From positions 1 through 57,976 of IMG/VR virus record IMGVR_UViG_3300028878_000001: a stretch of DNA of 57,976 bases, one strand, 5' to 3'. The notes under the pieces are model-generated. The model made no database searches, had not been told where the DNA came from, and saw only the letters and a list, made by a program, of their open reading frames with translations. Of this stretch, positions 3,165 to 56,972 are shown piece by piece (position 1 is the stretch's first letter; each line of letters begins with the position of its first letter). The translations under genes were made by a program, and so were the position numbers. The stretch is from a virus.

Positions 3165-4124
3165 TCAGGCGGCGGCAGGGGTGCCCACGGGGGCGGGCGG
3201 CACCTGCGTGAGGGCCTTGGTGCAGGGCGGGCACTTGGCCCGGCTGGTGCCGGTGTGGTCGCCGCGGGAGTGGGCCAGCAGCAGCACATACAGCGGCTGG
3301 TCGTCATCGCCGGCGGGAGTGTCGGCGGTTGGGGGCGAGGTGGCCGCGGGGGTGGCCGGCGTCGCCGGGTTGGTGGGATCGTCACCACGATCACCAGACG
3401 CACCAGCGGTGGTGGGCGTGGTGGGCGTGGGGTCGGTGGCGGCGGGGGCCGGGGCGGGGGCCGCACCAGGATCACCAGACGCACCAGCGGTGGTGGGCGT
3501 GGTGTTCTTGGTGCGAGAGGGGCGGCCGGCAGGGTCCGGGGTGGTGCGGCGGTCGCGGAGCTCACGGGCCATCGTCATGGCGGCCAGGCCACAGTCGGTG
3601 TCCTCATAGGCCGGATAGGTCACGCTGGACACGTCGAACAGCTCGACCTCCTGGAGGGTGCGCCGTTCGATCACCACACCAGGTTCGGTTTCGATCTCCT
3701 CCCACAGCTCACGGACAACCCGGAACCCGAAGCTCATCTGGCTCATATCGCCACGCTCCAGCGACACGGCCAGGTCCTGGCCGTAGCTGGTCGCGGCGAG
3801 CTGGGCGTCGACGGCCAGGCCGATCTTGTCCTCGGCCAGGGTCATGGTCCCGGCGGTGGTGCGGGCCAGGATCAGGTTGGGGTCGTGGTTGATCAGGAAC
3901 CGCACGTCGGACTCGCCGATGGTCTTGGCGAACGCACCCCGGGCGATGACCTCCTGGAAGCCCCACTTGGGGGGGCCGATCCAGGTTGGCGACTCGAAGA
4001 TGGCGGCGTGGCCGGTGAAGCGGATCTCGGTGTCGCCGTCGTCGGTGGTGGCGCGGACGGTGGCGGGGGTTCGGACTCGGCGCACCTCGATAGCGGTCAG
4101 GTCGCGCAGTCTTGGGTTGGCCAT
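3165..4124 (-). CDS. prohead protease, peptidase U35 (HK97 type), with extended tail
   Basis: 319 aa from the ATG at 4124; a GTG four codons upstream has no usable ribosome site. Residues 30-185 match the U35 fold: FTGHAAIFE, the catalytic His in FLINHDPN (H80) and the Ser in MSQMSFGF (S131), then LFDVSSVTYPAY. Family proteases are usually about 180-230 aa. Here about 125 extra residues follow: a Thr/Pro/Ala linker containing TTPTTAGASGD twice, then a C-terminal CPPC motif. The tail could be a scaffold-like or metal-binding appendage. It sits between portal and capsid. Confidence 0.92.
   Translation of the reverse strand: MANPRLRDLTAIEVRRVRTPATVRATTDDGDTEIRFTGHAAIFESPTWIGPPKWGFQEVIARGAFAKTIGESDVRFLINHDPNLILARTTAGTMTLAEDKIGLAVDAQLAATSYGQDLAVSLERGDMSQMSFGFRVVRELWEEIETEPGVVIERRTLQEVELFDVSSVTYPAYEDTDCGLAAMTMARELRDRRTTPDPAGRPSRTKNTTPTTAGASGDPGAAPAPAPAATDPTPTTPTTAGASGDRGDDPTNPATPATPAATSPPTADTPAGDDDQPLYVLLLAHSRGDHTGTSRAKCPPCTKALTQVPPAPVGTPAAA
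3389..3504. repeat. 35-nt direct repeat inside protease tail
   Basis: An identical 35-nt sequence occurs at 3389-3423 and 3470-3504 (period 81 nt, in frame). It encodes the duplicated TTPTTAGASGD segment of the protease linker. The exact nucleotide identity suggests a recent duplication or slippage. Confidence 0.9.
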
Positions 4125-4172
4125 GGGGGAATGCACCTCAGCGGAGGAGAGGGGAGCGCGGGGGGCGCGGGG

Positions 4173-14665: not shown

Positions 14666-14739
14666 CGCGGGGTAGTGCAGCCTGGTAGCACGCCGGACTC
14701 ATAATCCGGAGGTCGGGGGTTCAAATCCCCTCCCCGCCA
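14666..14739 (+). tRNA. tRNA-Met (anticodon CAT at 14700-14702), initiator-like
   Basis: Full cloverleaf: acceptor CGCGGGG/CCCCGCC (6 pairs plus a C1-C72 mismatch), D-arm GTGC-AGCCTGGTA-GCAC, anticodon arm CCGGA-CTCATAA-TCCGG, variable AGGTC, T-arm GGGGG-TTCAAAT-CCCCT, A73. The unpaired 1-72 position and the AGCCTGGTAG D-loop resemble bacterial initiator tRNA. The anticodon stem lacks the three G-C pairs usual for initiators, so elongator Met or Ile2 (lysidine) identity cannot be excluded. CCA is not fully encoded. Confidence 0.93.
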
Positions 14740-14743
14740 CCGT

Positions 14744-14944
14744 TCAGCGGGCCCGCCAGCCAAGCAGGGTCACGGTGTTGGTGGCGACGGCACGCACGTG
14801 GTGGTGGCCGTCGCTGTCGACCAGCTCCACGCTGAGGGCCCGGCCGGCCTCGTGGTACAGGCTGACTTGGGTGGGGCCGAGCTCGACGGTGACCCGGCCA
14901 GGGCCAGGGTCAGCCACGGTCAGGCGTTCGATGCCATCCACCAT
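14744..14944 (-). CDS. small protein downstream of the TET/JBP-like gene
   Basis: 66 aa; ATG overlaps the dioxygenase stop by one base (TGATG), so it is coupled to the cassette. All-beta pattern (RVTVELGPTQVSLYHEAGRALSVELVDSDGHHHVRAVATNTVTLLG). Possibly an accessory or DNA-contact subunit of the modification pathway; not recognised. Last gene of the cassette, tail-to-tail with the tRNA. Confidence 0.7.
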   Translation of the reverse strand: MVDGIERLTVADPGPGRVTVELGPTQVSLYHEAGRALSVELVDSDGHHHVRAVATNTVTLLGWRAR

Positions 14945-15819
14945 CAGCCAGCAGCCGCCAGGCGGCGTGCGGTCTGGGTGTCAGCCAACTGCTGGGCACG
15001 CTGGGCCTCAGCCTCGGCGGTGCCGCAGGCGACCATCTTGGTGCGGTAGTAGGCCACCACACTGATCCGCTCGGCATCCTCAGACAGGGGGGTGAGGGTG
15101 GTGTTGCCGTGCCACTCATGGGCGTCCATCAGCAGCAGATCCCCGTCCTGCATATCCACGCCGACCCGGTACTCGGGGAACAGGAAGATCCCCCCGCTGT
15201 AGGTACCCCGACGCAGCACGGTGAGGTTTGAGAAGCCAGCCTCGAGGTCGCCCTTGTCGGTGTGGACCCCGGTGGGGTAGGTGTTGTTGACGGTGATGGT
15301 GGTGAAGGGGGTGCCGGGGATGACCCAGTCCGGCTCGGTGCGGGCCACCTGGGCCATCTGCGCGGCGTAGCGGTCGGGGACCAGCGCAGCGAACTCCTGA
15401 CCGATGGCCTGGAACAGCGGGCGCAGCTCAGCGAACCGTTCGGTCTCCCGGCCGGTCCAGGCGGTCAGGCGGCAGAAGTGGTAGGGGCTGGAGCGGTTGT
15501 AGGCACCGATGATCGCTGAGCTGGTGGGTTTGGTGTAGGTGCGGGAGCCGGCGTACATCCGCACCCGTGGTGTCCCCGAGGCCAGCCCGCGGTTGGTGGT
15601 CTTCTCCGAGCGCAGGCTGTGGAGGGTCGGGTAGGAGGCCTCCAGGAGGGCGGGGGGGAACGCGTGCTTGCGGTAGATGCACAGGATGGTGCCGTCGGGT
15701 TTGCGGACCAGCGTGTCCCTCGTGAGCAGGACGTTGTAGTCGTCGTCGGTGCAGACCTTGCCGATCTTGTCGTCCAGCTCGGCACCACTTACCCGAGAGC
15801 GGATGCGTAGGTCGATCAT
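14944..15819 (-). CDS. TET/JBP-like 2-oxoglutarate/Fe(II) dioxygenase (DNA base hydroxylase candidate)
   Basis: 291 aa. Double-stranded beta-helix core in the C-terminal half. Iron ligands HTD (H186, D188) and H237 (in HEWHG); R251 (in ERISVVAYY) at the 2-oxoglutarate position. The sequence between them, GGIFLFPEYRVGVDMQDGDLLL, and the preceding TVNNTYPTGVHTDKGD are the signature of the TET/JBP superfamily rather than of PhyH- or AlkB-type enzymes. Known members oxidise 5-methylcytosine or thymine in DNA. The N-terminal 150 residues are helical and unassigned. Starts overlap the kinase stop (ATGA). Substrate unknown. Confidence 0.85.
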   Translation of the reverse strand: MIDLRIRSRVSGAELDDKIGKVCTDDDYNVLLTRDTLVRKPDGTILCIYRKHAFPPALLEASYPTLHSLRSEKTTNRGLASGTPRVRMYAGSRTYTKPTSSAIIGAYNRSSPYHFCRLTAWTGRETERFAELRPLFQAIGQEFAALVPDRYAAQMAQVARTEPDWVIPGTPFTTITVNNTYPTGVHTDKGDLEAGFSNLTVLRRGTYSGGIFLFPEYRVGVDMQDGDLLLMDAHEWHGNTTLTPLSEDAERISVVAYYRTKMVACGTAEAEAQRAQQLADTQTARRLAAAG

Positions 15820-16382
15820 GGGGTCAGTCCTCCTGGCCAGCACAGCGCCCGCAGATCCTCCGCGGCGCCGGGCCCACCCAGCCGGAGTGCCTGGTAGGCG
15901 TCGGCGAGGTGGGCGGTCTTGGTGATCCGTCCCCGGATCCACCGTTCGTTCTGGGCACGCCAAGGGGTTCGTGCGGCGCGGCGCTGGGCGGCGACGGCGG
16001 GGGGTGTTGCCAGCAGCACCACCTGCAGGTCGATGCCGACCGAACAGCAGATGTCGAAGAAGCGGGCGTTGGCGAGCCGGTCTCCTTCGGCAACGACCAG
16101 CCGGTAGGGGTGGCCGGCGATCCAGGCTTGCGCGGCCGGTTGGATGCTCATGCTGAGGGCGTCGGTGCCGCCGAACAGCTCGCGGGAGCGGCCGAGGTGG
16201 GCGCCGACGACCCTGCCGCTGGAGCAGCCCACAGGGCGGCTCAGCAGCTCATGCGGCACCGGAAGACGTTGGGGGGTGCGCTGGAGCCCGGCGAGGGCCT
16301 GGTTGAGCAGGGTGGTTTTGCCGGCGCCGGGCTCACCGATCACATACACCAGCCGCGTTGGAGGGGTCACCGGAGGGGTCAC
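15816..16382 (-). CDS. P-loop kinase-like NTPase of the modification cassette
   Basis: 188 aa from GTG 16382. Walker A is GEPGAGKTT (16-24); LVVAEGDRLA near residue 97 fits a Walker B; VVLLATPP and the RxxxR-containing RGRITKTAHLAD region resemble the lid and base of nucleotide or nucleoside kinases. In published phage hypermodification clusters a P-loop kinase phosphorylates the hydroxymethyl base in DNA. The same role is inferred here from context. The start region contains a 12-bp tandem repeat (GGAGGGGTCACC, 16366-16390). Confidence 0.8.
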   Translation of the reverse strand: MTPPVTPPTRLVYVIGEPGAGKTTLLNQALAGLQRTPQRLPVPHELLSRPVGCSSGRVVGAHLGRSRELFGGTDALSMSIQPAAQAWIAGHPYRLVVAEGDRLANARFFDICCSVGIDLQVVLLATPPAVAAQRRAARTPWRAQNERWIRGRITKTAHLADAYQALRLGGPGAAEDLRALCWPGGLTP

Positions 16383-17392
16383 CGGAGGGGTCCGGCCATC
16401 ATCTGGCGGGTAGGGGCGCTCCCGACGATCCAGAACACGCTCTCACCGGCTGCCGGCCGCCAGAACCATCGGAACATGGCCTGATGCTGGGCCATGAACG
16501 TGACCGCCTTGCCTTCGTAGGTGGGATGCAGCGCGATCCCATCCAGGGTGTAGGGCATCCGATCCTGGTAGGTGGCGAACCGCTGGTGGTGGAGGTCGTG
16601 GTACTCCAGCCTGACCGCGGCGAGGGGATCACGGAGCCCCAGCAAGCTGCGGATGCGGTCCAGGCGATCCAGGGTCCAGTCGAGCCGGGAGGGCCCAACT
16701 CCGAACAGCACCAGCCGCTCAAGGGCCGGTGGCAGGTGGTGGGCGAGGCCAACCAGCACCGAGGTGGCGCTGTTGCCGGAACCGAGGGTCATGGCCAGGG
16801 TGCGAGTCGCATCGGGCAGGTTGACGGTCTGGTGGGCCCCGACGGCGTGGAACGCGGCCAGGTCCTCAACCGACGCGCCGGTGGGGGTGCTGATGCCGTA
16901 GGCGAGCCGATAGTGGCCCGAGTACTCCCGGGTGCGGGCCAACTGGCTGACCGCCCGCTGCAACGCCGGGTTGTAGGCGACGGGGGTGTAGCGGAAGCTG
17001 GCGCCGGCGTCTTCGGCGATGGCGACGTTCTCGTGGCGGCGGGCCGAGACGGAGTTGGTCGCGCCGAGCATGATGGTGGCACCGAGCCGGTAGTGCTTGG
17101 CGACCAGCGCCGCCATCGAGACTTGGGGGGAGAGCACGGAGGCGGCGGTGAGGACTCCGGCGCGGCCGCCGGCAGCCCAATAGCGGTGGACGAGGTAGAT
17201 GAGCTGGCGCAGCTTGGACCCGTTGATGCCGCCATACCCCAGCGGCGCGAAGGTGTCCTCCCGCTTCCAGCCGATTCCGCTGTCCCCGGTTTGGATGGGG
17301 GTGAGCCCGGCCAGGTAGTGCTCCCAGCGTACGTCGGCCCGGTCCAAGCTCAGGGTCGGGAAGATGCTGCCGGTCTCGGCCAGGACGGTCAT
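16379..17392 (-). CDS. PLP-dependent enzyme, fold type II (ACC deaminase/cysteine desulfhydrase-like)
   Basis: 337 aa. KREDTFAPLGYGGINGSKLRQ carries the fold-II N(G/x)SKxR motif with the Schiff-base Lys at K60. The order of elements follows ACC deaminase/D-cysteine desulfhydrase-like enzymes: TAASVLSPQVSMAALVAKHYRLGATIML, a Gly/Ser-rich LGSGNSATSVLVGLAHHL phosphate-binding stretch. Coupled by ATGA overlaps to the genes on both sides. PLP enzymes in phage base-modification clusters edit amino acids attached to the base; that role is inferred. Free amino-acid metabolism is the alternative. Confidence 0.82.
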   Translation of the reverse strand: MTVLAETGSIFPTLSLDRADVRWEHYLAGLTPIQTGDSGIGWKREDTFAPLGYGGINGSKLRQLIYLVHRYWAAGGRAGVLTAASVLSPQVSMAALVAKHYRLGATIMLGATNSVSARRHENVAIAEDAGASFRYTPVAYNPALQRAVSQLARTREYSGHYRLAYGISTPTGASVEDLAAFHAVGAHQTVNLPDATRTLAMTLGSGNSATSVLVGLAHHLPPALERLVLFGVGPSRLDWTLDRLDRIRSLLGLRDPLAAVRLEYHDLHHQRFATYQDRMPYTLDGIALHPTYEGKAVTFMAQHQAMFRWFWRPAAGESVFWIVGSAPTRQMMAGPLR

Positions 17393-18480
17393 CGGCAGCG
17401 CCCAAACCCTTGGGCGTCGACCTTGGCTTGGAAGTCGTTGGTGAAGGCGGGGTCGTCGTGGTCGAGCATCACCTGCTGGCCGGTGAGCCGGTAGTGGTTC
17501 TGCTTGGCTGGCACCATCCCCGGATCGAACGGGGAGTCCTCCAACCTGAGCGCGCGGGGCAAGGCGACGGCGCGGGCTTCCCAGAACAGCCCCAGATCGG
17601 CGGTTGGCCAGCGGTCCTCCATCTGGCGGATGCGGTCATGGAGCATGTCGTTGTAGACGTTCGGGTAGCGGCGGTTGGGACGATGCCAGCTCTTGTAGGT
17701 GCACAGCGCCGACTCCAGGGTGAAGTTGCCGACGTCACCCGCCCAGGGCTGACCGCGGGCGCGGATGCGGGCCTCAGCCAGCAGCACCTTGGCGGCGCCG
17801 GTCAGATACGACAGCTCCGACGGGGTGTAGCGGCCATCGAAGCCCGGGTTGCTGGAGTGCCAGTCGAGGGTGTCCAGGCCCAGCACCTTGCACAGCCCGT
17901 TGCGGTGGCTCTTGGACCCCTGGCGGTCACCGAGCATCAGGGTGTCGCAGTCGAGGACGTTGATGCGGCCGGCGCCGGCGATGCGCAGGTACTCGGTGAA
18001 CGAGAACGCGCTCAGGCGGCCGAAGGTGGGGATCTGCCGGGCGCGACGCCACACCTCAGCGAACCCGCCGTAGGTGGCGTGGTCCCAGTAGGCAGCCTGC
18101 GACGGCCACCCCTTCAGGTTGGCCAGGTAGCCGGCGGTGGCGGTGTCGAGGGCCTTTTTGTGGTAGCGGCGGTCGGTGTCGAACGCGAGACGGCCGTACT
18201 CCCTGCGCCAGAACCGCAGCATCCGCCCGGCTCGGGCGGGGCGGTCGCCGGCGGTGTGGAGCAGCAGCGAGGTGACGGGGTGTTGGGTGTTGCCGTTCAG
18301 GAACGCGAACCACAGGGCCTGCTCCGTATCCCAACCCAGCCGGTCGGCAAGGTGGGGAAGCAGGTAGTAGACCCCACCGGGGTGGGCGCGGTGGCGGAGG
18401 TGGAACTGGTAGAAGCGGTGGAACACCTCCCGCCGCAGCCCAGGGGCGCGGAAGTCCATGCCCGGCTGGAGGTCGATCAT
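17389..18480 (-). CDS. helical protein resembling HMUDK-helical / aGPT-pyrophosphorylase group
   Basis: 363 aa, almost entirely helical with many Arg/Tyr/Trp. FRAPGLRREVFHRFYQFHLRHRA and ALWFAFLNGNTQHPVTSLLL recall the helical domain found in hydroxymethyl-dU DNA kinases and in alpha-glutamyl/putrescinyl-thymine pyrophosphorylases of hypermodifying phages. LGDRQGSKSHRNGLCKVLG may be another conserved element. First enzyme gene of the cassette by transcription order. Family membership is a by-eye impression and needs an HMM comparison. Confidence 0.6.
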   Translation of the reverse strand: MIDLQPGMDFRAPGLRREVFHRFYQFHLRHRAHPGGVYYLLPHLADRLGWDTEQALWFAFLNGNTQHPVTSLLLHTAGDRPARAGRMLRFWRREYGRLAFDTDRRYHKKALDTATAGYLANLKGWPSQAAYWDHATYGGFAEVWRRARQIPTFGRLSAFSFTEYLRIAGAGRINVLDCDTLMLGDRQGSKSHRNGLCKVLGLDTLDWHSSNPGFDGRYTPSELSYLTGAAKVLLAEARIRARGQPWAGDVGNFTLESALCTYKSWHRPNRRYPNVYNDMLHDRIRQMEDRWPTADLGLFWEARAVALPRALRLEDSPFDPGMVPAKQNHYRLTGQQVMLDHDDPAFTNDFQAKVDAQGFGRCR

Positions 18481-18818
18481 CGGCGGTGGCGGGTGAGCTT
18501 GGCGGCTTGGGTGCGGACGAGCCGTTCGAGTTCTTCGGCGACCAGCTCGGCCACGGTGTCGCGGATGGTGGGGTGGCCGCGGACGTCGGTGAGATGCTGC
18601 AGCCCGTTGACCACGCTGGTGTAGGTGGCGGCCGGGTAGCGCATCACCAGCTCCTGGAGATGCACCCGTTCGGCTTGGGGGCCGCGGCGGGTGGCGCGCT
18701 CGGCGGTCTCGGCTTCGGTTTCGGCGTAGCTGCCCCGGAACCGCTCGGGGGTGGTGATGGGGGTGCGGCCGGCCGCGGCGGCGGCGTCGTCGGCCGCGTC
18801 GGCGTCGTCTGGGGTCAT
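18477..18818 (-). CDS. small helical protein before the cassette
   Basis: 113 aa from ATG 18818 with GGAGGAACC leader. Acidic Ala/Asp-rich N-terminus, then charged helices (TVAELVAEELERLVRTQAAKLTRHRR). Its stop overlaps the start of the helical enzyme gene (ATGA), so it is coupled to the base-modification cassette. Unknown function. Confidence 0.7.
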   Translation of the reverse strand: MTPDDADAADDAAAAAGRTPITTPERFRGSYAETEAETAERATRRGPQAERVHLQELVMRYPAATYTSVVNGLQHLTDVRGHPTIRDTVAELVAEELERLVRTQAAKLTRHRR

Positions 18819-19087
18819 GGTTCCTCCGTGGTTGCCCGGCCAGCGCGGGCGCGGGCGACCCGCACCGGCTCGCGTGCGCCGGTGTAGTGCGGGGGCCGCT
18901 GGTGGTGCTGTCGGCGCAGGGTCCCGGCCTGGCGGCCGAGGGCTTGGGAGAACACCCGCTGCAGGGCCCGACGCTGGGTGCGGGTCAGCCACCCCTCGTC
19001 TTCGTCGGGGGGGGTCAGCTCACCCGGGGTCGCCCGGTCAGGTTCGCCGGCGGCCAGCGCAACGTCCGGGGGGTCAAGCTGCTGCAT
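18815..19087 (-). CDS. small hypothetical protein
   Basis: 90 aa from ATG 19087, overlapping the end of the ClpP-like gene by 14 nt. Acidic N-terminal half (ATPGELTPPDEDEGWLTR), basic C-terminal half (LGRQAGTLRRQHHQRPP). Could link protease and cassette translation. Not recognised. Confidence 0.6.
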   Translation of the reverse strand: MQQLDPPDVALAAGEPDRATPGELTPPDEDEGWLTRTQRRALQRVFSQALGRQAGTLRRQHHQRPPHYTGAREPVRVARARAGRATTEEP

Positions 19088-19808
19088 GGGCGATGCCGCC
19101 GCGGACCTCATCGACGAACCCGAGCCGCAGGGCCTCGCCGGCGTCCAGCCACCAGTCCTTGCGCTTCCACTTGCGGGCGATCTGGGTGCGGGTCATCGTG
19201 CTGCGTTCGGCGAGGATGTCGAGGATGCGGTCCTGCAACCGTTTGACGAACACGACTTCGTCCTCGAGCTCGCTGGCGCCACCCCACGCCAAGGAGCTGA
19301 CCTCGTGGATCAGCATGTAGGCGTTGGGGGCCAGCACCCGGTGCGAACCGGCCTGCAGCAGGATCCCGCCCATCGAGGCGGCCATGCCCATCCCGACGGT
19401 GGTGATCTCGTGGCCGTCGGCGCGCAGCTCCAGCAGGTAGTCGAACAGCGCCAGGCCGTCGAACACGCTCCCACCGGGGGAGTTGAAGATGAGCTTGATC
19501 GGCTGGGTGGGGTCGCGGCGAGCCCAGATGCCCAGCTCGGTCAGGGCCTTGGCCACACTGACGGCGCCGACCTCGCCGTAGAAGGTGAGGATGCGGTGCT
19601 CGGAGGCGTCGGCGTTGTCGCGGCGGTGGTAGATCTCGTCCCGCAGATACTGCTGGTCGGTGCGGCGGGTGTCGGCCTTGAGCTTGGCGATCTCGGCGCG
19701 GAGGCGGTCGGCTTCCAGCTCTTCCAGCACCGGCGACACCGGCGACACCACCAGCTCGGCGGTGGCCGGCTCAGCGGCGGCGGCGGGCTTCGGCTTGCGT
19801 GGGGTCAA
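19074..19808 (-). CDS. ClpP-like serine protease (S14)
   Basis: 244 aa from TTG 19808, supported by GGAGGAACCC. ~75 N-terminal residues are Ala/Glu-rich. The ClpP core follows: IKLIFNSPGGSVFDGLALFDYL, nucleophile Ser in GMAASMGGILL, catalytic His in YMLIHEVSS, and the C-terminal GEALRLGFVDEV. Many phages use such an enzyme as prohead protease, but here a U35 protease already occupies that place. It may process another virion or host protein. Host ClpP partner motifs cannot be judged. Confidence 0.9.
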   Translation of the reverse strand: MTPRKPKPAAAAEPATAELVVSPVSPVLEELEADRLRAEIAKLKADTRRTDQQYLRDEIYHRRDNADASEHRILTFYGEVGAVSVAKALTELGIWARRDPTQPIKLIFNSPGGSVFDGLALFDYLLELRADGHEITTVGMGMAASMGGILLQAGSHRVLAPNAYMLIHEVSSLAWGGASELEDEVVFVKRLQDRILDILAERSTMTRTQIARKWKRKDWWLDAGEALRLGFVDEVRGGIAHAAA

Positions 19809-20110
19809 GGGTTCCTCCTTGGGCAGCCGCCGGTGGTGTGGATCCGGGAGGGCTGGGTCGACCAGATGCGGTCGGGGGCGGCCAGGTCTCGGCAGACCAG
19901 GCACGGGCCCGGGCGATGCCGGCAGGGGGGGCGGCCGGCGGTGGCGGCTGGGGCGTGGGCGTCGCAACGCCACACCCTTGACACGACCGGGACGCGGTCG
20001 ACGGTGGTGACGGTGAGGCGGCGGGCCCAGCGGGCAGGGTCGCCGCAGACCTCACACAGCGGGCCGGCACCCAACCCAACCGGGATCCAGCGGTCGGCGC
20101 CGAAGTTCAC
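19805..20110 (-). CDS. Cys-rich zinc-binding protein
   Basis: 101 aa from GTG 20110 (GTGA overlap). LCEVCGDPARW, VWRCDAHAP, PPCRHRPGPCLVCRD supply eight or so Cys/His ligands, enough for two zinc sites. Directly upstream of the ClpP-like gene, overlapping its TTG. Unknown function. Confidence 0.72.
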   Translation of the reverse strand: MNFGADRWIPVGLGAGPLCEVCGDPARWARRLTVTTVDRVPVVSRVWRCDAHAPAATAGRPPCRHRPGPCLVCRDLAAPDRIWSTQPSRIHTTGGCPRRNP

Positions 20111-48023: not shown

Positions 48024-49109
48024 CTACGGCCAGCAGCCGGCCGCGGCCGGCGGGCCGTCGACCGTGCCGTCGGTGTGGTGGAACTGGTGGGTCCAGGTGC
48101 CGCCCTGCCAGCCGGCCGGGCTCTGGCTGACGGCCAGGTCGAGGGTCTCGACACCGAATGCGGGGCCGTTGTAGCGGTAGCGGAGCCCTTCGGGGGCCGG
48201 GTTGACCCGGAAGTCGGTGTGGCTGCGGCCGCCCATCCCTTCGGTGATCTGGCGCATCCCCGACCCGGTCGGGCTGAGGTGCCGGTCCCAGGTCATGGGG
48301 CCGAAGCGGGCCTCGCTGTGGCTGTGGCCGGACATGACCAGGTCGTTGTGCCAGTGGTTGAGGGCCAGCCAGAACTGGCGGGTGGCGTCGTCGTTGGCGA
48401 AGAACCCCGACCCGATGTACTCGTGATGCCAGACCGCGATCGAGCATTTGCGGCCCGAGGTCTGGCCGCCGTGGCGGGCCGCGAAGAAGGCGTTGAGCCA
48501 GCGGACCTGCTCGCCGTCGCCGGCGCAGCTGGCGGTGTCGACGTCGCCGGTGCCGCCTGCGGCCCGGCCGCAGTTGGAGTCGAGGGTGACGATGAACCAG
48601 TCGGGGCGGGCGTCGCGGTTGGTGTCCAGGTCGATGCCGTAGTAGCCGCGCTCAGGCTGGCAGGGGACCGGGTCGGCCTTGCAGGGCAGGCTGGCGAACA
48701 GCTCGGCGAAGTAGGTGTTGAGGCCGGTGGCGCCGGGCCCGGGGGCTGAGGCGTCGTGGTTGCCTGGTGCCGGGCACAGCACCTTGGGGCCGACCAGCCG
48801 GCCATAGCTGCCGTCGTAGCCCAGCGGCGAGCGGAACATCTCGATCTCGCCGTGCTCGTACATCAGATCGCCGGGCTGGCAAATCCCGTCCGGTTTCAGG
48901 CTGACCAGCAGCTCGGCGGTGGCCTGGTCGAAGGGGCCGGTCGTCTCCCCGACGGGTGGGGCGACGTCGGCAACGAACGCCCACCGGGCGCCGCCAGCGG
49001 GCCAGCTGTAGGGGCCGGTGGGGTCGGCGGCGGCCGGTGCCGGCCAGCCGCCAGCCGCCATCATCGCCACGCACAGCACCACCACCAGCAGGAGGCGGGC
49101 GTGTGTCAC
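48024..49109 (-). CDS. secreted calcineurin-like metallophosphoesterase
   Basis: 361 aa from GTG 49109. Signal peptide (RLLLVVVLCVAMMAAGGWPAPAAA). Metallophosphoesterase motifs in order: a GDLMYEHGE Asp region, PGNHDAS, VWHHEYIG and MSGHSHSEARF. This is the purple-acid-phosphatase-like arrangement for a two-metal centre. Expected to hydrolyse phosphate esters outside the cell. Rare as phage cargo; the first-motif Asp (usually GD...D) is only partly clear. Confidence 0.85.
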   Translation of the reverse strand: MTHARLLLVVVLCVAMMAAGGWPAPAAADPTGPYSWPAGGARWAFVADVAPPVGETTGPFDQATAELLVSLKPDGICQPGDLMYEHGEIEMFRSPLGYDGSYGRLVGPKVLCPAPGNHDASAPGPGATGLNTYFAELFASLPCKADPVPCQPERGYYGIDLDTNRDARPDWFIVTLDSNCGRAAGGTGDVDTASCAGDGEQVRWLNAFFAARHGGQTSGRKCSIAVWHHEYIGSGFFANDDATRQFWLALNHWHNDLVMSGHSHSEARFGPMTWDRHLSPTGSGMRQITEGMGGRSHTDFRVNPAPEGLRYRYNGPAFGVETLDLAVSQSPAGWQGGTWTHQFHHTDGTVDGPPAAAGCWP

Positions 49110-49366
49110 TTGGGATCTCCCTTCCCCTTGACCTCGGGGAGCCGCTCCACCGGGGTGTGGGTGCCGCCAGTATGGTCGTTCCAGAACCCAGCGATCAGCT
49201 CGGCGGCATGGGCGCCGGTGACATAGATCGCGCAGCCAAGCCCGCCGGGGATGCCCTGGCACAGGCACGCGGCGTCCGGTGGTGGCATGGGTGGCTTGCG
49301 GGGCCGCCCGGAGGACCGTCGGGGGATGCCGGCGGCCCGGCGGGACACCCGTGGGGGGCGGGCCAT
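49106..49366 (-). CDS. small hypothetical protein before the phosphatase
   Basis: 86 aa, start 14 nt from operator site 3. Basic N-terminus (RRAAGIPRRSSGRPRKPP), CLCQGIPGGLGCAIYV, then helix and WNDHTGG. ATGA-type overlap with the phosphatase start. Unknown. Confidence 0.6.
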   Translation of the reverse strand: MARPPRVSRRAAGIPRRSSGRPRKPPMPPPDAACLCQGIPGGLGCAIYVTGAHAAELIAGFWNDHTGGTHTPVERLPEVKGKGDPK

Positions 49367-49379
49367 CAGCAGCCCGATG

Positions 49380-49400
49380 GTGTCAGGGGTCGCCTGACAC
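49380..49400. promoter_or_regulatory. palindromic operator-like site 3
   Basis: GTGTCAGG-GGTCG-CCTGACAC, 8-bp perfect arms, directly upstream of the start at 49366. The minus strand TAGTGT overlapping it could be a -10. The intergenic stretch to 49516 holds no other gene. Confidence 0.7.
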
Positions 49401-49516
49401 TAGAAGGGAGCCGGTCGGGGTGGGACGGCAGGTTCAGCACCCAGCACGCTCCAGGGTCAGAGCGGGGTGGCGCCAGCCCGCCGCCGCGTGGGCCGCCACC
49501 ACCCCACAGTTGCGGG

Positions 49517-49615
49517 TCAGTGCCACTTGACGCCGGCACCGAGCGCGGCCGCGGCCGCGGCCAGGCCAGCGAGGCCGGCCAGCACCCGCCAGGTGCGGGC
49601 ACGTAGGGTCTGCAT
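49517..49615 (-). CDS. 32-aa membrane micropeptide
   Basis: ATG 49615 with a very strong AAGGAGG leader. RTWRVLAGLAGLAAAAAALGAGV is one membrane helix with a basic N-terminus. Position between two secreted-protein genes supports an envelope location. Confidence 0.6.
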   Translation of the reverse strand: MQTLRARTWRVLAGLAGLAAAAAALGAGVKWH

Positions 49616-49641
49616 GGATCCTCCTTCCTCCTTCCTCTCTT

Positions 49642-50175
49642 TTAGAGCCCGCAGGCGACCAGGTTGTCGGTGACGGCGAAGGTGGCGCCGTCCTTGTACC
49701 CGCTGCGGGAGAGCCCGGTGGGGGTGACCCGCCATTCCAGATCGGACCCGTAGTAGGTCTGGGTTGAGCTACCCCAGCAGCCCCAGTTGGAGTAGCGGAC
49801 GACGTAGCTCTCGTTGAAGGTGTCGGCGAAGTTGTTGTTCTCGACCACCACGGCGCCGTCGAGGATCTTCACACGCTCGATCAGGCCCCGCCCGTCGCTG
49901 TTGTTGTCGAAGTCCCAGTCGGCGCCGCTGTCGGCGACCCCGCCCTTGCGGACCCGCATCTCGGACCGGACCCGAACCTTGCCGGTGGTGTAGTCGTGTT
50001 GGAGGCAGCGCCGGACCTCGGCGACGGTGCCGTCACCCCAGGCGGCCGCTGTGTCCCAGTCGACCGCGTTTGGGCGGCAGCCGTAGGTGAGGACCGCCGC
50101 CTGCGCGGGGGCGGCCAGGGCGGTGAGGGTGGCGAGGGCCAGCGTCAAGGCGGCAATCGCACGGATGCGTCGCAT
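49642..50175 (-). CDS. secreted protein
   Basis: 177 aa from ATG 50175 (GGAAGGA leader); an ATG at 50190 is possible. Signal peptide (IAALTLALATLTALAAPAQA). Mature part is Asp/Asn/Tyr-rich with Cys in YGCRPN, VRRCLQH, NWGCWGS, VACGL (two possible disulfides). Probably beta-rich exported protein. Family not recognised. Confidence 0.75.
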   Translation of the reverse strand: MRRIRAIAALTLALATLTALAAPAQAAVLTYGCRPNAVDWDTAAAWGDGTVAEVRRCLQHDYTTGKVRVRSEMRVRKGGVADSGADWDFDNNSDGRGLIERVKILDGAVVVENNNFADTFNESYVVRYSNWGCWGSSTQTYYGSDLEWRVTPTGLSRSGYKDGATFAVTDNLVACGL

Positions 50176-50205
50176 CAGGTGTCCTTCCATGGGTGGGCCA
50201 GAGGG

Positions 50206-50250
50206 TTAGCCCCAGCGGATCAGCAACGCGAGGAAGGCAGCGAACAGCAC
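50206..50250 (-). CDS. possible 14-aa hydrophobic leader peptide
   Basis: GTG 50250 with GGAGGTGACCG upstream, encodes LFAAFLALLIRWG then TAA, ending 31 nt before the secreted protein start. Could be a leader peptide controlling that gene; equally may be chance. Confidence 0.25.
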   Translation of the reverse strand: MLFAAFLALLIRWG

Positions 50251-50253
50251 CGG

Positions 50254-51246
50254 TCACCTCCTCCCGGTTGGGTGGGCGAGGCGGACCAGCGCCTCCAGGT
50301 CGGCGGGATGGTCCACCAGCCAGCGGCCGGCGACGAACAGCAGATCATCGGCGTCCAGGGTTCCGACGGGGGTGTGACGAGGTTGGGCAACCGCCTGGAG
50401 GTAGCGGCCCGCCTCGGCCAGGTCCTCGGGCTCCAGCGGCCGGCTGCCCCAGTTGCCGTCGAGCAGGAACCGGAAGTGGCGGTCGAACATGACCTCGGGG
50501 GGCAAGGCACGGTCGACCTGCCAGCTGCGGTTGGGGATGCGGATGGGGGGGGCTTGGGGGATCCCAGCCGCCTGGAAGGTTGCCGCAACCATCGCCGGGG
50601 TCGCTGGCGGCCCCAACCCCCGCTGGGCCATGTGCGCCTTGAGGTTCTGGAGGTCGCCGTCGGCTTCGACGATCACACACACCAGCCCGCCGGTCAGCCC
50701 CCCGAGGGCGGCCAGCATCGGGATCAGCCCGTCGACCTGTTCCAGGTAGTAGACGCCATGCAGGTTGGTGACATAGGCCGGGGGCGGGTCCAGCCTCGCC
50801 CCGGCGGCCAGCTGGGCGAGGAGATCTTGGAGGGTGACCGCCAGCACGTTGACATGCACGCCGTAGCGGATGCTGCCGGCGGTACGGCGGGCCAGCTCGG
50901 CCAGCTGGCGGGCGTCGGGCTCTTCGGCGTGCAACACGAACCGGTCGCTGTCGAGCTCGCCGTACAGGTCGCGGGCGACGGTCAGGGTCTTGGCGGCCTC
51001 GCCGGCGCAGGTGTCCAGCGCCGCCAGCTGGCCAGCGCGGGCGAGATGGGCAAGGTGGCGGGAGAAGTCGGGGAGGGCCTTGAGGGTGGCGGCCAGGGTG
51101 GCCGCGTCGCGGAGGTGTTCGTGTTCGATGGCCTTCGAGGTGGCGTAGCTGCGGACATAGCCGTCGCTGACCGCCCGGTCGGGGTGGTAGGCGGCCAGGG
51201 TGGCGGGGGCGTTGGGGCCCAGGTGGGCGGCCAAGTCAGGATGCAT
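50254..51246 (-). CDS. probable class I SAM-dependent methyltransferase
   Basis: 330 aa, GGAGGCCCCCGC leader. Rossmann-like order: LAALDTCAGEAAKTL (motif I position, degenerate), FVLHAEEPDARQL (acidic end of strand 2), YVTNLHGVYYLEQVDGLIPMLAALGGLTGGLVCVIVEAD (strands 4-5 with an H-x-x-YYL helix start). No DNA-methylase catalytic motif (PCQ/DPPY) is present. It therefore looks like a small-molecule or peptide methyltransferase, not the missing C5-cytosine methylase for the TET/JBP-like enzyme. Confidence 0.55.
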   Translation of the reverse strand: MHPDLAAHLGPNAPATLAAYHPDRAVSDGYVRSYATSKAIEHEHLRDAATLAATLKALPDFSRHLAHLARAGQLAALDTCAGEAAKTLTVARDLYGELDSDRFVLHAEEPDARQLAELARRTAGSIRYGVHVNVLAVTLQDLLAQLAAGARLDPPPAYVTNLHGVYYLEQVDGLIPMLAALGGLTGGLVCVIVEADGDLQNLKAHMAQRGLGPPATPAMVAATFQAAGIPQAPPIRIPNRSWQVDRALPPEVMFDRHFRFLLDGNWGSRPLEPEDLAEAGRYLQAVAQPRHTPVGTLDADDLLFVAGRWLVDHPADLEALVRLAHPTGRR

Positions 51247-51259
51247 GCGGGGGCCTCCG

Positions 51260-51928
51260 TCAGGTGGTGGGCCAGGGTTGGCGGGCGGCGGCGCAGGTGC
51301 GGGCGTGGGTGGCGGCCGCTCCGCCTGCGGCACCGCCGCTCCACCCGCACGCGCAGTTGTAGTAGACGGCCGGTCGGTAGCCGGGACCGCCCTGCTTGGT
51401 GGTCTTGCGCATGGAGCCATAGGGGCCGTCGACCGTCCCGGCGATCTGGCCGGCGGTCTTGGGCTGGTCGGCCTGTCCGTTGCGGGCGGCGGTGTCGGCG
51501 GCGGCCACATAGTTGGCGTGCTTGGCGGCCATGTGCTGGGCCAGGTTGTTGAAGGGTGCTCGGGAACAGGCGGGGACCGGGCACACGCCGTGGGCGGCGC
51601 GGCGGCGGGCCCGGGTCAACTGCCCTTTGAGGATGCTCTTGGCCTTGCGTTCCTTCCCTTCCTCGATCCGCCACCACTCGGCCGTCTCCCACGCGGCGGT
51701 GAGCGCCCGTTGCTTGGCTTCCAGCTCCTTGCGGAGCTTCTGTTCGGTGGTCTCGCGGTAGACCCGCGGGTGGCCGTTGGGGCAGTACCACGTCTTGCCG
51801 TCGTCCTGGCGTTCCTCCCTCCAGCGGGGCGGGACCGCGAAGCTGATCCCGCACTCGCCGCAGACGATCAGCTCCAGGCGGGTGGTGGTGGTCGGCGCGA
51901 TGTACCGGGTGGCCGTGGTGGCGGTCAT
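51260..51928 (-). CDS. zinc-finger/coiled-coil protein
   Basis: 222 aa from ATG 51928. N-terminal CGECGISFAVP...YCPNGHP ribbon, coiled coil (TTEQKLRKELEAKQRALTAAWETAEWW), then a C2H2 finger CPVPACSRAPFNNLAQHMAAKH and a C-terminal CACGWSGG...H. Three zinc modules. The CxxxxC-(12)-H-(4)-H finger is like eukaryote-style fingers found in some phage proteins. Probable nucleic-acid binder. Confidence 0.8.
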   Translation of the reverse strand: MTATTATRYIAPTTTTRLELIVCGECGISFAVPPRWREERQDDGKTWYCPNGHPRVYRETTEQKLRKELEAKQRALTAAWETAEWWRIEEGKERKAKSILKGQLTRARRRAAHGVCPVPACSRAPFNNLAQHMAAKHANYVAAADTAARNGQADQPKTAGQIAGTVDGPYGSMRKTTKQGGPGYRPAVYYNCACGWSGGAAGGAAATHARTCAAARQPWPTT

Positions 51929-51953
51929 GGCGGGCCGTCCTTTCCTGGCGGGG

Positions 51954-52370
51954 TCAGGTTTCGATGGCGGTGTAGCGCCAGTGGCAGCGGGCACCGTCGC
52001 CGGTCATGTCCTCGAACCGGATGCCGACCTTCCAGCCGGTGGGGACGTACAGCAGGCCGGTCCAGCACAGCTCCCGGCCGGGTGGGACCTCGACCGGGGT
52101 GATGCCGCCGGGGGCGAAGCGGGCATGGTCGGTTTCGGGGTCTTGGCCGTCCAGCAGCAGGAAGGTGGCCAGGTTGGGGTGGTCTTCGGCGTTGTGGGCG
52201 TAGATGGACTGGAGGATCCACAGCTTGCCGACCGGGACGCCGACGTGGGGGCGGGTCGACACCGCCGGGCCCGGTTTGGAGTCCCACGACACCGACTCCC
52301 CGATGACATCGCGGCCCATCGGGTAGCGGGCGCTCAGCGACCGGATGGGAGTGCGGGTGAAGATGGTCAA
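51954..52370 (-). CDS. hypothetical beta-sandwich-like protein
   Basis: 138 aa from TTG 52370, GGAGGCCCC leader as for the ClpP-like gene. Strand-rich (GVPVGKLWILQSIYAHNAEDHPNLATFLLLDG, ELCWTGLLYVPTGWKVGIRFEDM), a layout like small jelly-roll or virion surface proteins. Follows the glycosyltransferase with ATGA-like overlap. Unknown. Confidence 0.65.
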   Translation of the reverse strand: MTIFTRTPIRSLSARYPMGRDVIGESVSWDSKPGPAVSTRPHVGVPVGKLWILQSIYAHNAEDHPNLATFLLLDGQDPETDHARFAPGGITPVEVPPGRELCWTGLLYVPTGWKVGIRFEDMTGDGARCHWRYTAIET

Positions 52371-53650
52371 GGGGCCTCCTGGTCCTGGGGTTGGGTGTCG
52401 GCTGACCCGTCGGGACTGATGATGGTGTTGGGCGGCGGTGGCGGCAACACGACGGTCGCTGGTGGTGGGGGGGCGGGGGGCGGCTGGGGTGGCGGAGCGT
52501 ACCGTACCGCGGCGGCGGTCAGCACCACCGCCGTGAGGGTGGCCAGGGCGGCGCGGCGTTCCCGGGTCATGGGGTGGATGACCTTGGTGTGCCCGTGGCG
52601 GCCGGTCCATGCCCCGTAGTGGCGGCCCAGGATCCACTCGCGCACGAAGCTCCACAGGTACAGGGCCTTGTTGTACAGGTTGACCAGCGTGTACGGCACC
52701 GCCCCACACACCGCCTCGCGGGGGCCGACAACAGTGGCGACCAGCATGGTGTTGAAGGCGAGGCGGCCAGCCATGAACCAACCGTAGCCGGCCACCCACG
52801 GCTTGTGGGTGATCAGCCCCCAACCCAGCAGCCCATAGGACAGCGGCAGGGTGAGCAGGTCGAACAGGGCCGTCCACACCACCAGCATCGCCTTGGGGTG
52901 CAACAGCCCACGCTTGTGTTTGGCCATGGTCTGGAAGTAGCCGGCGGCCCACCGTTGCATCTGGGCCCGGTAGGCCGCGAAGGTTTCGGGGTCCATGGTG
53001 AGGGCGGTCGCCCGGCCGATGTAGCCGACCCGGAACCCGGCCCGGTGCAGCGCCCAGGTGGCGTCCATATCGGCGCTGATGCCCACGCTGGGGAACCCAC
53101 CGATGGCCTTGAGGGCGTCGGTGCGGAACGCATAGCAGGCGCCGGTGAGGACCTGGATGCGGCCGACCTTGGACTGCGACCATCGCCACCAGCGCCGACC
53201 CAAGGCGTAGGCGTAGCGGCGGGCGCGGATGAAGAACCCCTTGGCCTGCGCGGGCAGGACGGTGCCGCCGACGGCGTCGTAGCCGCCGGCGAGGGCGGCC
53301 AGCTCCAGCGCGATGCAGTCGGGCTCAGGGAAGGTGTCGGCGTCGAACCCGACCACCACATCGGAGGTGATGGTGGGCAGGACCAGGTTCTGCTTGCCGT
53401 CCTTGGATGGGTCAGGGGTGGTCCACACCTCCACCCCACAGGCGCGGGCCAGGGCGGCGCTGTTGTCGGCGCCGGGGCCGTCGTAGGCCACCACCACCAC
53501 CCGTTCCAGCGGGTAGCTTGAGGCTTGGATGGCGTGCAGGCAGCGGACGATGGTGGGCTGGTCGGCGTGGGCGGGGACCAGCACCGTCGCCGTCAGCCCC
53601 CCACCGCAGGCACCGGCGGCGGGGGGGCTGACGGCGACGGTGGCGGTCAT
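52367..53650 (-). CDS. membrane family-2 glycosyltransferase
   Basis: 427 aa from ATG 53650. GT-A domain: TATVLVPAHADQPTIVRCLHAIQA, VVVVAYDGPG, DVVVGFDADTFPEPD (DxD), GGFPSVGISADMDATWALHRAG (ED-type), QMQRWAAGYFQT (QxxRW). This is the order of processive GT2 enzymes (hyaluronan/NAG synthase type). Several membrane helices follow (VWTALFDLLTLPLSYGLLGWGL, FNTMLVATVVG) and a Pro-rich tail. A surface-polysaccharide role is likelier than DNA glycosylation. A perfect 21-bp hairpin covers codons 3-23. Confidence 0.88.
   Translation of the reverse strand: MTATVAVSPPAAGACGGGLTATVLVPAHADQPTIVRCLHAIQASSYPLERVVVVAYDGPGADNSAALARACGVEVWTTPDPSKDGKQNLVLPTITSDVVVGFDADTFPEPDCIALELAALAGGYDAVGGTVLPAQAKGFFIRARRYAYALGRRWWRWSQSKVGRIQVLTGACYAFRTDALKAIGGFPSVGISADMDATWALHRAGFRVGYIGRATALTMDPETFAAYRAQMQRWAAGYFQTMAKHKRGLLHPKAMLVVWTALFDLLTLPLSYGLLGWGLITHKPWVAGYGWFMAGRLAFNTMLVATVVGPREAVCGAVPYTLVNLYNKALYLWSFVREWILGRHYGAWTGRHGHTKVIHPMTRERRAALATLTAVVLTAAAVRYAPPPQPPPAPPPPATVVLPPPPPNTIISPDGSADTQPQDQEAP
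53582..53642 (-). repeat. 21-bp perfect hairpin at the glycosyltransferase start
   Basis: The 21-nt arms 53582-53602 and 53622-53642 are exact complements, loop 19 nt. In the mRNA the stem begins 8 nt after the A of the start codon. It encodes TATVAVSPP and GGLTATVLV on the two arms. Confidence 0.92.
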
Positions 53651-54018
53651 CGGGCCTGTTTGCAGCTTACGGTCTGGCCTCGGACCGCCTCGGCGATCTT
53701 GGGGAGCTGGGCGGCGACCTGGGCGTCGAAGCGGGCTTCGGTGGTCTTGCCCTTGTGGTGGTCGTTCGCGACGGTACGGAGGGCCTCGACCGCGACCCTG
53801 ACCGTCTCGGTGTTGATGGTGCATTCGGTGCGGACCACCTCGGAGGCGGTTGGGGCGACCGGCTTGGGCTGCATTCGGGTACCGAGCACGAACGCCCCCG
53901 CCACCATCACCGCCACCATCACCGCAAGCAGCCAGCCCAGCAGCCGGTTGCGGCGGTGGCGGGGGCGGTGGCGGGTGGCGCGGGTGCCGACGATCCCGTT
54001 GTGTTCAGGTTCACGCAT
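53647..54018 (-). CDS. single-pass membrane protein
   Basis: 123 aa from ATG 54018. Basic N-terminus (RHRPRHRRNR), span LLGWLLAVMVAVMVAGAFVLG (27-47), then an outer helical domain with two Cys (RTECTINTETV, QTVSCKQ). ATGA overlap with the glycosyltransferase suggests a partner subunit. Confidence 0.72.
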   Translation of the reverse strand: MREPEHNGIVGTRATRHRPRHRRNRLLGWLLAVMVAVMVAGAFVLGTRMQPKPVAPTASEVVRTECTINTETVRVAVEALRTVANDHHKGKTTEARFDAQVAAQLPKIAEAVRGQTVSCKQAR

Positions 54019-54051
54019 GGCACACCTCGAGTGGGAGGCGGAAGAGGGGGG

Positions 54052-54228
54052 TCAATCGGGGTCGTCGCTGTTGGCCATCCGGGTGACCACCGCAGCGACC
54101 CCACCGAGGAACGCAGCGACTGGGCCGGCCGCGAACGCCAGCACCGCCCCCACCGCGGTGACCACCACCGCCGAGGCGGTCAGAATCGCCGAGCCGATAC
54201 CGGTGAACGGGAGTTCGTCTCCGTACAA
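54052..54228 (-). CDS. 58-aa two-TM protein
   Basis: TTG 54228, GAGGAG upstream. ELPFTGIGSAILTASAVVVTAVGAVLAFAAGPVAAFLGGVAAVV: two membrane helices. LPFTG resembles a sortase motif but lies at the N-terminus with no signal peptide, so it is probably coincidence. A TGTTGC-TC-GCAACA palindrome sits 24 nt upstream. Confidence 0.6.
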   Translation of the reverse strand: MYGDELPFTGIGSAILTASAVVVTAVGAVLAFAAGPVAAFLGGVAAVVTRMANSDDPD

Positions 54229-54251
54229 GGGGTCTTGTCTCCTCTCGTGGA

Positions 54252-54265
54252 TGTTGCTCGCAACA
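54252..54265. promoter_or_regulatory. TGTTGC palindrome
   Basis: TGTTGC-TC-GCAACA, the same half-site as in the arms at 39687-39692/39716-39721, upstream of the start at 54228 and downstream of the 54274 stop. Confidence 0.5.
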
Positions 54266-54273
54266 GTAACCGG

Positions 54274-54537
54274 TCAGGGAGGCTCCTCGGGGGGCCGCCA
54301 CCCCAGCCGCCGCAGCCGGTCCTCCTCGATCTGGCCGCGGCTGGGCAGCCGCCGCACCAACAGCCAGAGCACGAACCCCACCCCGGCCGAGTACGCGACG
54401 ATCCCAAGCGGCCACAGCCAGCCACCGCCCGCCTTGGCGACCAGCCACAGCATGAAGGTGAGAGGCAGCCCCATCGTCAGGTAAGCGAAGGCGGCCGTCC
54501 GCAGCCCTGCCCAGGTTGGCCGCAGCCGAGTCGCCAT
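54274..54537 (-). CDS. two- or three-TM membrane protein
   Basis: 87 aa, one-base overlap with the HNH ORF stop. Helices AAFAYLTMGLPLTFMLWLVA and WLWPLGIVAYSAGVGFVLWLLV, then a charged cytoplasmic end (RRLPSRGQIEEDRLRRLG). Belongs to the envelope cluster at the right end. Confidence 0.7.
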   Translation of the reverse strand: MATRLRPTWAGLRTAAFAYLTMGLPLTFMLWLVAKAGGGWLWPLGIVAYSAGVGFVLWLLVRRLPSRGQIEEDRLRRLGWRPPEEPP

Positions 54538-55814
54538 CACCACCACCGCCAGAAGGTCCGCATCATCCGCTGCGCGCAGACCAGGTCCAGCTCGGCACCC
54601 CGGCACGCCAGCCGGATCGTCTCGGTTGGCACGGCAACGTCGACGTCGCGGCACACCGCCAGGTACAGCCGCCCCTCCAGCCGATCCTTGCGGGTCACCT
54701 CGGCCAGGTTGACCTGCGGCCACACGTTGGATCGGGTGCTGGTGCCGCCGGCCCAGCGGGCCACCAGATGGTCCCACTCGAACACCCGGGTCGACGGGCT
54801 GAAGCCGTAGCCGGCGAGCACCTGCCGCTTGCCGTCGGGGGTCAGCTCACGGCGCGGGTTGTAGCTGGTCTGGCACACCCCGGTGGCGGTCGGGATGACC
54901 GCGCCGGGGGTGAGCTTGGGGCGGGGGCAGCCGGCCCCCAGGGGGCAGCCGTTGGCGACCCTCGGACGCCGCGTTGTCGACGGCCCCAGAGCGACCGTTG
55001 GGGCGGTCGTGGAGGGGCCGACGGTGGCGCTGCTGGTGTCAGGTCCGGCCTGACGCGAGAGCGTGCTTGGTGGCGGGGTTGGGGGCCCGTCGCCGGCGGT
55101 GCAGCCGGCCACGATGAGCGTGCCGGCAACCACACCCGTCAGCAAGCCAAGCAACACGGGATGTTCGCGCCAGCCTCGCGGGCAAGGCAAGCAACCGTTT
55201 GCGGGGTGCGGCCGGGCCGGGAGTGCCGGCCGGGGCGGCATCAGCATCGGAGCTTGCGGAGAGGCTGATGCCGCGGGAGGCCGGTGCGAGCGGCCCGGCC
55301 GCACCCCGCGCCGGGTGGCAGGTCCTGGTGGTGGTTGGAGATACAGGTCCCCCGGTCGCTCGGGGCCGGCGCCGCGGCCCGAGGTGGGGCGGCGCCGGTG
55401 GGTGAGCTTGCCCCAGCCAACCACGACGGCGGTGGTCAGCCAGAGCCCGCGGTTCTTGTTCCCGAACCACAGGACGCTGAGGTCGTGGATGCGCTGGTGT
55501 TCGGGGAGGGTGACCAGCACCAGCTGCCAGGGGAGTTCGCGGCCGACGTTGATGTAGGTCCAGTGGTGGGCGCGGAGGTAGTGGGGGCGGGCGAAGTGGC
55601 TGGGGCGGACAGCGACGGGGCCGGGGTGTCCGGTGACGGCCGAGCGGGCACCGCGGCGGCGAACCAGGTCGGCGGTGACGGCCTGGAACCCTGGCGACCG
55701 GATCCAGGTGTGGTAGTCGTCGCCGCTGATGCGGCCGCGGATCCCGAGGGCCAGGAAGGCGACGAACCCGGTGGCGGCCAGGCCGGCGAGCAGGCCAACG
55801 ACGATGCCGGTCAC
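54537..55814 (-). CDS. double-HNH membrane/lipoprotein-like ORF
   Basis: 425 aa in one frame. Residues 1-26 are a membrane helix (GIVVGLLAGLAATGFVAFLALG). The first HNH-like module is LRAHHWTYINVGRELPWQLVLVTLPEHQRIHD. After a Pro/Arg linker comes a second signal-like segment with lipobox (LLGLLTGVVAGTLIVAGC), a Ser/Thr linker and a second HNH module, FEWDHLVARWAGGTSTRSNVWPQ...KDRLEGRLYLAVC, typical of secreted HNH nucleases. A 110-nt stem-loop encodes the join. Either two genes fused by that element, or separate translation with a start after it. Confidence 0.75.
   Translation of the reverse strand: MTGIVVGLLAGLAATGFVAFLALGIRGRISGDDYHTWIRSPGFQAVTADLVRRRGARSAVTGHPGPVAVRPSHFARPHYLRAHHWTYINVGRELPWQLVLVTLPEHQRIHDLSVLWFGNKNRGLWLTTAVVVGWGKLTHRRRPTSGRGAGPERPGDLYLQPPPGPATRRGVRPGRSHRPPAASASPQAPMLMPPRPALPARPHPANGCLPCPRGWREHPVLLGLLTGVVAGTLIVAGCTAGDGPPTPPPSTLSRQAGPDTSSATVGPSTTAPTVALGPSTTRRPRVANGCPLGAGCPRPKLTPGAVIPTATGVCQTSYNPRRELTPDGKRQVLAGYGFSPSTRVFEWDHLVARWAGGTSTRSNVWPQVNLAEVTRKDRLEGRLYLAVCRDVDVAVPTETIRLACRGAELDLVCAQRMMRTFWRWW
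55036..55056. promoter_or_regulatory. palindromic operator-like site 4 (one mismatch)
   Basis: GTGTCAGG-TCCGG-CCTGACGC: same 5-nt spacing, one arm base changed. Inside the HNH ORF shortly after the lipobox, i.e. near the start of its secreted half. Confidence 0.5.
55201..55309. repeat. 110-nt nested stem-loop within an ORF
   Basis: Outer arms (55201-55219 / 55291-55309) pair perfectly over 19 bp. A middle stem GTGCCGGCC/GGCCGGTGC pairs with two G-U pairs on RNA; the inner stem is GGCATCAGC (55237-55245) / GCTGATGCC (55264-55272). The G-U pairs in the middle suggest selection for RNA rather than DNA structure. Confidence 0.88.
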
Positions 55815-56728: not shown

Positions 56729-56730
56729 CG

Positions 56731-56955: not shown

Positions 56956-56972
56956 GGGGGGCTCCTTTCGGT

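Follow-up and report, generated by a model that had tools for sequence, protein, structure and literature searches.

Gene content and organization of the operon

The DNA analysed here is the IMG/VR virus record IMGVR_UViG_3300028878_000001, a stretch of 57,976 bases (referred to as the window) with a G+C content of 71.6% and with genes for portal, capsid and prohead protease. On the minus strand of the window, a run of four genes from position 18480 to 14944 forms a putative DNA hypermodification operon. It encodes an amino acid:DNA transferase (ADDT/aGPT-PPlase2 family), an enzyme dependent on pyridoxal phosphate (PLP), a P-loop kinase and a TET/JBP dioxygenase, in that order. Successive genes overlap by four bases (ATGA or GTGA) at 17389-17392 (transferase/PLP enzyme), 16379-16382 (PLP enzyme/kinase) and 15816-15819 (kinase/dioxygenase), and their translational coupling is therefore very likely. 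All of the open reading frames (ORFs) listed in an initial annotation of this DNA, which had proposed a new cassette for base hypermodification, were found where it had placed them, on the minus strand and overlapping.

The TET/JBP dioxygenase

The dioxygenase gene (14944..15819, minus strand) opens at ATG 15819 and encodes 291 amino acids; the 339-amino acid ORF that starts at TTG 15963 is a mechanical extension. Its product matches Pfam Tet_JBP at E=3.7e-21 (75.5 bits, against a curated cut-off of 34.9). Counted from ATG 15819, the residues named in the initial annotation are exact: the Fe(II) triad HxD...H (H186, D188, H237) and the 2-oxoglutarate-binding arginine (R251) are invariant in 30 aligned sequences. 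An AlphaFold model (predicted local distance difference test, pLDDT, 94.5) resembles the TET2-DNA structure most closely (Z 22.3 over 253 residues), followed by NgTET1 (19.6) and CMD1 (19.5). The top 16 structural matches comprise only TET2, NgTET1, CMD1 and CcTET, while the best non-TET fold reaches Z 14.5, and AlkB and FTO about 14. As modelled, the enzyme is a member of the TET/JBP family whose double-stranded beta-helix fold most resembles that of TET proteins, rather than a small-molecule hydroxylase, in line with the first description of the gene.

Searches of PDB sequences with the dioxygenase and the transferase gave no meaningful match, and no relatives of the dioxygenase were found among genome contigs. 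Two TET sub-clades are represented among the modules, one window-like and the other as in Coopervirus and Tonitrus phages. The window enzyme is predicted to act as a hydroxylase of the thymine methyl group in DNA.

The transferase and the kinase

The transferase gene (17389..18480, minus strand; 363 amino acids) had been recognized at first only as encoding a helical protein. The gene is real and can now be assigned to the ADDT/aGPT-PPlase2 family by its matches to Pfam ADDT PF18724 (E=2.8e-13, above the cut-off) and PHROG 3271 (E=2.9e-76). Identity is 54.7% to the homologue in mycobacteriophage Fortunato, 41% to that in Glutamicibacter phage Montesquieu and 27% to Vi01_199 of Salmonella phage ViI (E=4e-21), and 374 phage records contain a match. 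By analogy with ViI, the protein is predicted to displace the phosphate on 5-phosphomethyluracil with an amino acid.

The P-loop kinase (15816..16382, minus strand; 188 amino acids, GTG start), already so named in the initial annotation, matches Pfam Ploopntkinase3 at E=3.2e-35. It has a Walker A motif, GxPGxGK, and an EGDRLAN motif, in which E99 and G100 are invariant in 18 aligned sequences, and is a predicted 5-hydroxymethyluracil DNA kinase. Homologues in hundreds of actinobacteriophages (386 phage records, e.g., L003:1786-2382 and L002:2863-3462) are labelled "terminase small subunit" or "adenylate kinase", a type of label also borne by PHROG 800; these proteins are more likely to be DNA-base kinases.

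The PLP enzyme

The PLP enzyme (16379..17392, minus strand; 337 amino acids) matches PHROG 3650 at E=2.2e-76, the only family found for it in Pfam and PHROG scans. The nearest solved structures to its AlphaFold model (pLDDT 95.8) are 1j0a, a homologue of 1-aminocyclopropane-1-carboxylate (ACC) deaminase (Z 24.2 over 273 residues), and D-cysteine desulfhydrase (Z 23.9), with TrpB lower at about 18.5. The ACC deaminase-like fold type II that had been noted from the letters alone is therefore borne out, as is the Schiff-base lysine: K60, together with G204 and S205, is invariant in 58 aligned sequences, such that both this lysine and the phosphate loop are kept. The enzyme nevertheless belongs to a different sub-family within the ACC deaminase/D-cysteine desulfhydrase fold. 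In the ACC deaminase family a Ser-Asn loop normally binds the substrate carboxylate. The Ser-Asn of 1j0a aligns with S88-P89 of the window enzyme, and S88, P89 and Q90 are invariant in the 58 sequences, a replacement compatible with a changed reaction.

Along its entire length, the enzyme shows homology to the PLP enzymes of ViI and other Ackermannviridae (33-36% identity; Vi01_182, 33%, pairwise E=3e-60), and most of the 346 matching phage records are from this family, with hosts such as Salmonella and Vibrio. By analogy with these, it is predicted to edit a DNA-bound amino acid as a decarboxylase. Because of this homology, a fold-type-II enzyme does not by itself indicate a new side chain, and the earlier suggestion that it would point to an undescribed one is not supported. 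A pathway that modifies thymine but ends in a side chain unlike that of ViI, through use of another amino acid or through elimination, racemisation or some other edit by the PLP enzyme, would yield an undescribed nucleoside. The single kinase and single transferase of the operon, against two of each in ViI, speak for such a pathway, as do the long branch of the window enzyme on the PLP tree (0.55), its identity of only 33% to Vi01_182 and the nature of the closest solved folds. We nonetheless consider it unlikely, since the substrate-facing motifs SPQ (88-90) and HPxYEGK (289-295) are nearly identical throughout the family, ViI type included, which suggests a shared chemistry.

The composition of the operon also bears on whether DNA is its substrate. 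A tRNA-Met gene lies immediately downstream and could hint at a tRNA target; a small-molecule substrate or a decayed operon might likewise be envisaged. We regard all of these as highly implausible, as the catalytic motifs are intact and conserved, the dioxygenase is structurally closest to TETs that act on DNA, and the other three families (kinase, ADDT and PLP) are components of DNA-modification pathways.

Distribution of the module and exchange of the first enzyme

A scan of viral contigs with an alignment of the PLP enzyme gave 188 relatives, of which 80 were kept, with 76 new loci. All four families are present together in 49 of these 76 independently fetched loci, and many of the others reach a contig edge. 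Together with the matches to Tet_JBP, Ploopntkinase3, ADDT and PHROG 3650, this indicates that the ORFs of the operon are not chance. The order of the four genes differs between loci, implying that they travel as a module. The combination of TET and PLP enzyme is widespread in viral metagenomes.

ViI-type phages make their hydroxymethylated base at the nucleotide level with a hydroxymethylase of deoxyuridine monophosphate (dUMP), a homologue of thymidylate synthase (TS). Among 42 PLP records selected chiefly by length, blind to the first enzyme they carried, 31 had TET, 5 the dUMP hydroxymethylase/TS and none both (Fisher p=5.4e-4). A second set of 22 records was chosen to add synthase-type relatives and was thus not blind; here the counts were 1 for TET, 17 for TS and 0 for both, giving combined figures of 32/64, 22/64 and 0/64. 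The PLP tree requires at least four changes between the TET and TS labels, with the ViI-type enzymes nested inside a largely TET clade, and a single TS clade is rejected (p-AU, approximately unbiased test, 1.6e-69). In the window record, which may be a fragment, PF00303 finds no dUMP hydroxymethylase/TS at E<=10. Judged from these sequence comparisons, TET very probably takes the place of the nucleotide-level dUMP hydroxymethylase ahead of the same downstream enzymes. If the two exchange in this position, both would be expected to lead to one and the same intermediate, 5-hydroxymethyluracil in DNA; the TET would then act on thymine.

Thymine or cytosine as the modified base

Alternatively, the dioxygenase could oxidise 5-methylcytosine (5mC), made by a methyltransferase of the host or an undetected one of the phage, to 5-hydroxymethylcytosine, which the kinase, transferase and PLP enzyme would then elaborate. 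Those phage TETs that have been assayed reportedly act on 5mC, and phage 5mC-TET systems are said to include a coupled C5-cytosine methyltransferase. Methylophilales phage Melnitz-1 (L175:2431-4615) shows such an arrangement: the gene for its TET, of the same Tet_JBP family, shares 20 bases with that for an HhaI-like C5-cytosine methyltransferase, and the pair is likely to be of the 5mC type. The window and Melnitz-1 TETs have an HxDxxD motif in common. HxDxxD versus HxDxxN was considered as a signature of base choice and dropped, because it does not tell the window TET apart from that of Melnitz-1, which is linked to a methyltransferase.

No C5-cytosine methyltransferase is coupled to the window operon, however, and a PF00145 search of the window record gives no hit at E<=10; the 31 TET-bearing records of the blind PLP set and complete Coopervirus genomes likewise yielded none, and only 1 of 36 records of the other set contains one. 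This record, L031 (G022:C1:33671-34147), is the sole one found in which TET, ADDT and kinase occur together with a C5-methyltransferase; the latter lies some 10 kb away from the TET, and the system could be of the cytosine type or mixed. The records are partial, and Pfam searches for absent genes have limited sensitivity. For this reason, and because most other TET phages lack the enzyme as well, its absence counts as supporting evidence only, and its use as sole proof of a thymine substrate was rejected. The downstream enzymes are, moreover, shared with phages that build on 5-hydroxymethyluracil and whose first enzyme and TET are mutually exclusive. A cytosine pathway thus appears quite improbable.

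Proposed pathway and comparison with known systems

We suggest, with a probability of about 0.62, that the operon carries out post-replicative hypermodification of thymine. The TET/JBP dioxygenase would hydroxylate the thymine methyl group in phage DNA to give 5-hydroxymethyluracil; family membership is seen in the protein, the choice of base being the predicted part. The P-loop kinase, to judge from its family, may then phosphorylate the hydroxymethyl group, and the ADDT-family protein, like its homologue aGPT-PPlase2 of ViI, would exchange the phosphate for an amino acid. Finally, the PLP enzyme would edit this amino acid on the DNA; its homology to that of ViI makes decarboxylation the most likely reaction, which would leave an amine with a positive charge, for example 2-aminoethoxymethyl. 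The final product may protect the phage DNA against restriction enzymes. The order of oxidation, phosphorylation, displacement and editing in the initial annotation is plausible and follows good pathway logic, but the replacement of the dUMP hydroxymethylase by TET had been missed.

Several observations weigh against this proposal. The second kinase and second transferase of ViI were not found in the operon, the similarity of the kinase to Vi01_061c is weak (E=1.2e-5), and the nearest solved PLP enzymes catalyse elimination or deamination, not decarboxylation. The C5-methyltransferase is also missing from 7 of 8 TET control phage records. After correction for kinship few independent pairs are left, and a sign test is not significant; as the TET and TS counts share ancestry, the weight of the comparison rests on the zero overlap and the repeated swaps. 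A further version, in which TET is a prokaryotic JBP-type thymine hydroxylase that sets the modification sites after replication and the set of one kinase, one transferase and one PLP enzyme leads to an undescribed thymidine derivative, is put forward only tentatively.

The closest characterized pathway is that of ViI, whose side chain reportedly arises when the PLP enzyme decarboxylates an ether-linked serine. It shares with the window a homologous PLP enzyme (Vi01_182), an aGPT-PPlase2/ADDT protein (Vi01_199), a P-loop kinase and the same predicted order of chemistry. In contrast, ViI obtains 5-hydroxymethyl-dUMP through its TS homologue, has an aGPT-PPlase1 as second transferase together with a second kinase (PMC10458263), and has scattered genes, whereas the window has TET/JBP in a compact four-gene operon. 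In Vi01 DNA, 5-(2-aminoethoxy)methyl-dU (5-NeOmdU) replaces about 40% of thymidines (PMC11721090). ORF169 and ORF187 of Dickeya phage PP35, which match the window PLP enzyme and transferase, respectively, are named among the genes for transformation of 5-hydroxymethyldeoxyuridine that are conserved across the whole family (PMC6336734). Phage Montesquieu (OV696619) has ADDT, PLP enzyme and kinase in the same order as the window, but with a pyrimidine hydroxymethylase, two kinases and no TET.

In Rhodococcus phage Tonitrus, TET, transferase and kinase are part of a five-gene thymine hypermodification system (PMC11955845). Its TET-like protein, aGPT-PPlase2 and kinase correspond to those of the window; unlike the window, it lacks a PLP enzyme, has a TET of the other sub-clade and carries a ParB-like gene. 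Such a ParB partner, known in Tonitrus and Coopervirus, was sought in the window and not found. In the editing position, gene 8 of Tonitrus (L168:3761-4642) has an N-terminal Rossmann-like GxGxxG motif in place of a PLP enzyme and is possibly a flavin-dependent editor. In the Coopervirus mycobacteriophages Fortunato and Nigel, the left genome end likewise carries TET, ADDT and kinase, but no PLP gene adjoins them, and the kinase is labelled terminase small subunit. Nigel_2 (L003:776-1744), labelled "queuine tRNA-ribosyltransferase" like PHROG 6059, sits at the hidden Markov model (HMM) match to TET and looks like a TET/JBP dioxygenase.

Among eukaryotes, kinetoplastid JBP1 and JBP2 make base J by way of conversion of thymine to 5-hydroxymethyluracil in DNA, the reaction predicted here; there the product is glucosylated, whereas phosphorylation and amino acid transfer are predicted for the window operon. 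That phage TET/JBP proteins are associated with a kinase and a transferase was reportedly predicted by Iyer et al. in 2013, a study cited in PMC6449724. As the downstream genes are already present in hundreds of cultured or metagenomic phages, the ViI chemistry is known, and TET with transferase and kinase has been published for Tonitrus, the description of the cassette as a candidate new one was overstated. Neither the combination of TET, ADDT, fold-type-II PLP enzyme and kinase nor evidence for replacement of the hydroxymethylase by TET was found in the literature searched, which did not extend to the cluster tables of Iyer 2013, Lee 2018, Lee 2021 and Burke 2021.

Flanking genes

Downstream of the operon, an ORF of 66 amino acids (14744..14944, minus strand) shares a single nucleotide, 14944, with the TET stop. 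It had been included in the cassette as a beta protein; the ORF is present, but it has no Pfam or PHROG match and no homologue in any fetched locus, and its membership in the pathway is not supported. The tRNA-Met gene (14666-14741, plus strand) possibly marks a module boundary or attachment site. Upstream, HMM searches place homologues of an ORF of 171 amino acids (18477..18992, minus strand) upstream of TET in most of the loci L013-L042, including loci without kinase or ADDT, and it is probably a neighbour rather than a pathway enzyme. The window encodes two distinct proteases of the head-maturation type, one ClpP-like and adjoining the operon (19074-19973), the other an S78 prohead protease encoded within the capsid module (3165-4136). 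At the right end of the window (48024-57899) lie genes for a metallophosphoesterase, a glycosyltransferase of family 2 and a possible STAND NTPase; this region could represent additional cargo of the phage or host sequence next to a prophage.

Implications for phage TET enzymes

To our knowledge, the phage TETs that have been assayed act on 5mC, and the only proteins known to oxidise thymine in DNA are the JBP proteins of eukaryotes. Given that TET has replaced the hydroxymethylase at least four times before the same three enzymes, many phage TETs are probably thymine oxidases. This replacement bears on the origin of JBP, and the operon offers candidate enzymes to write and functionalise 5-hydroxymethyluracil in DNA.

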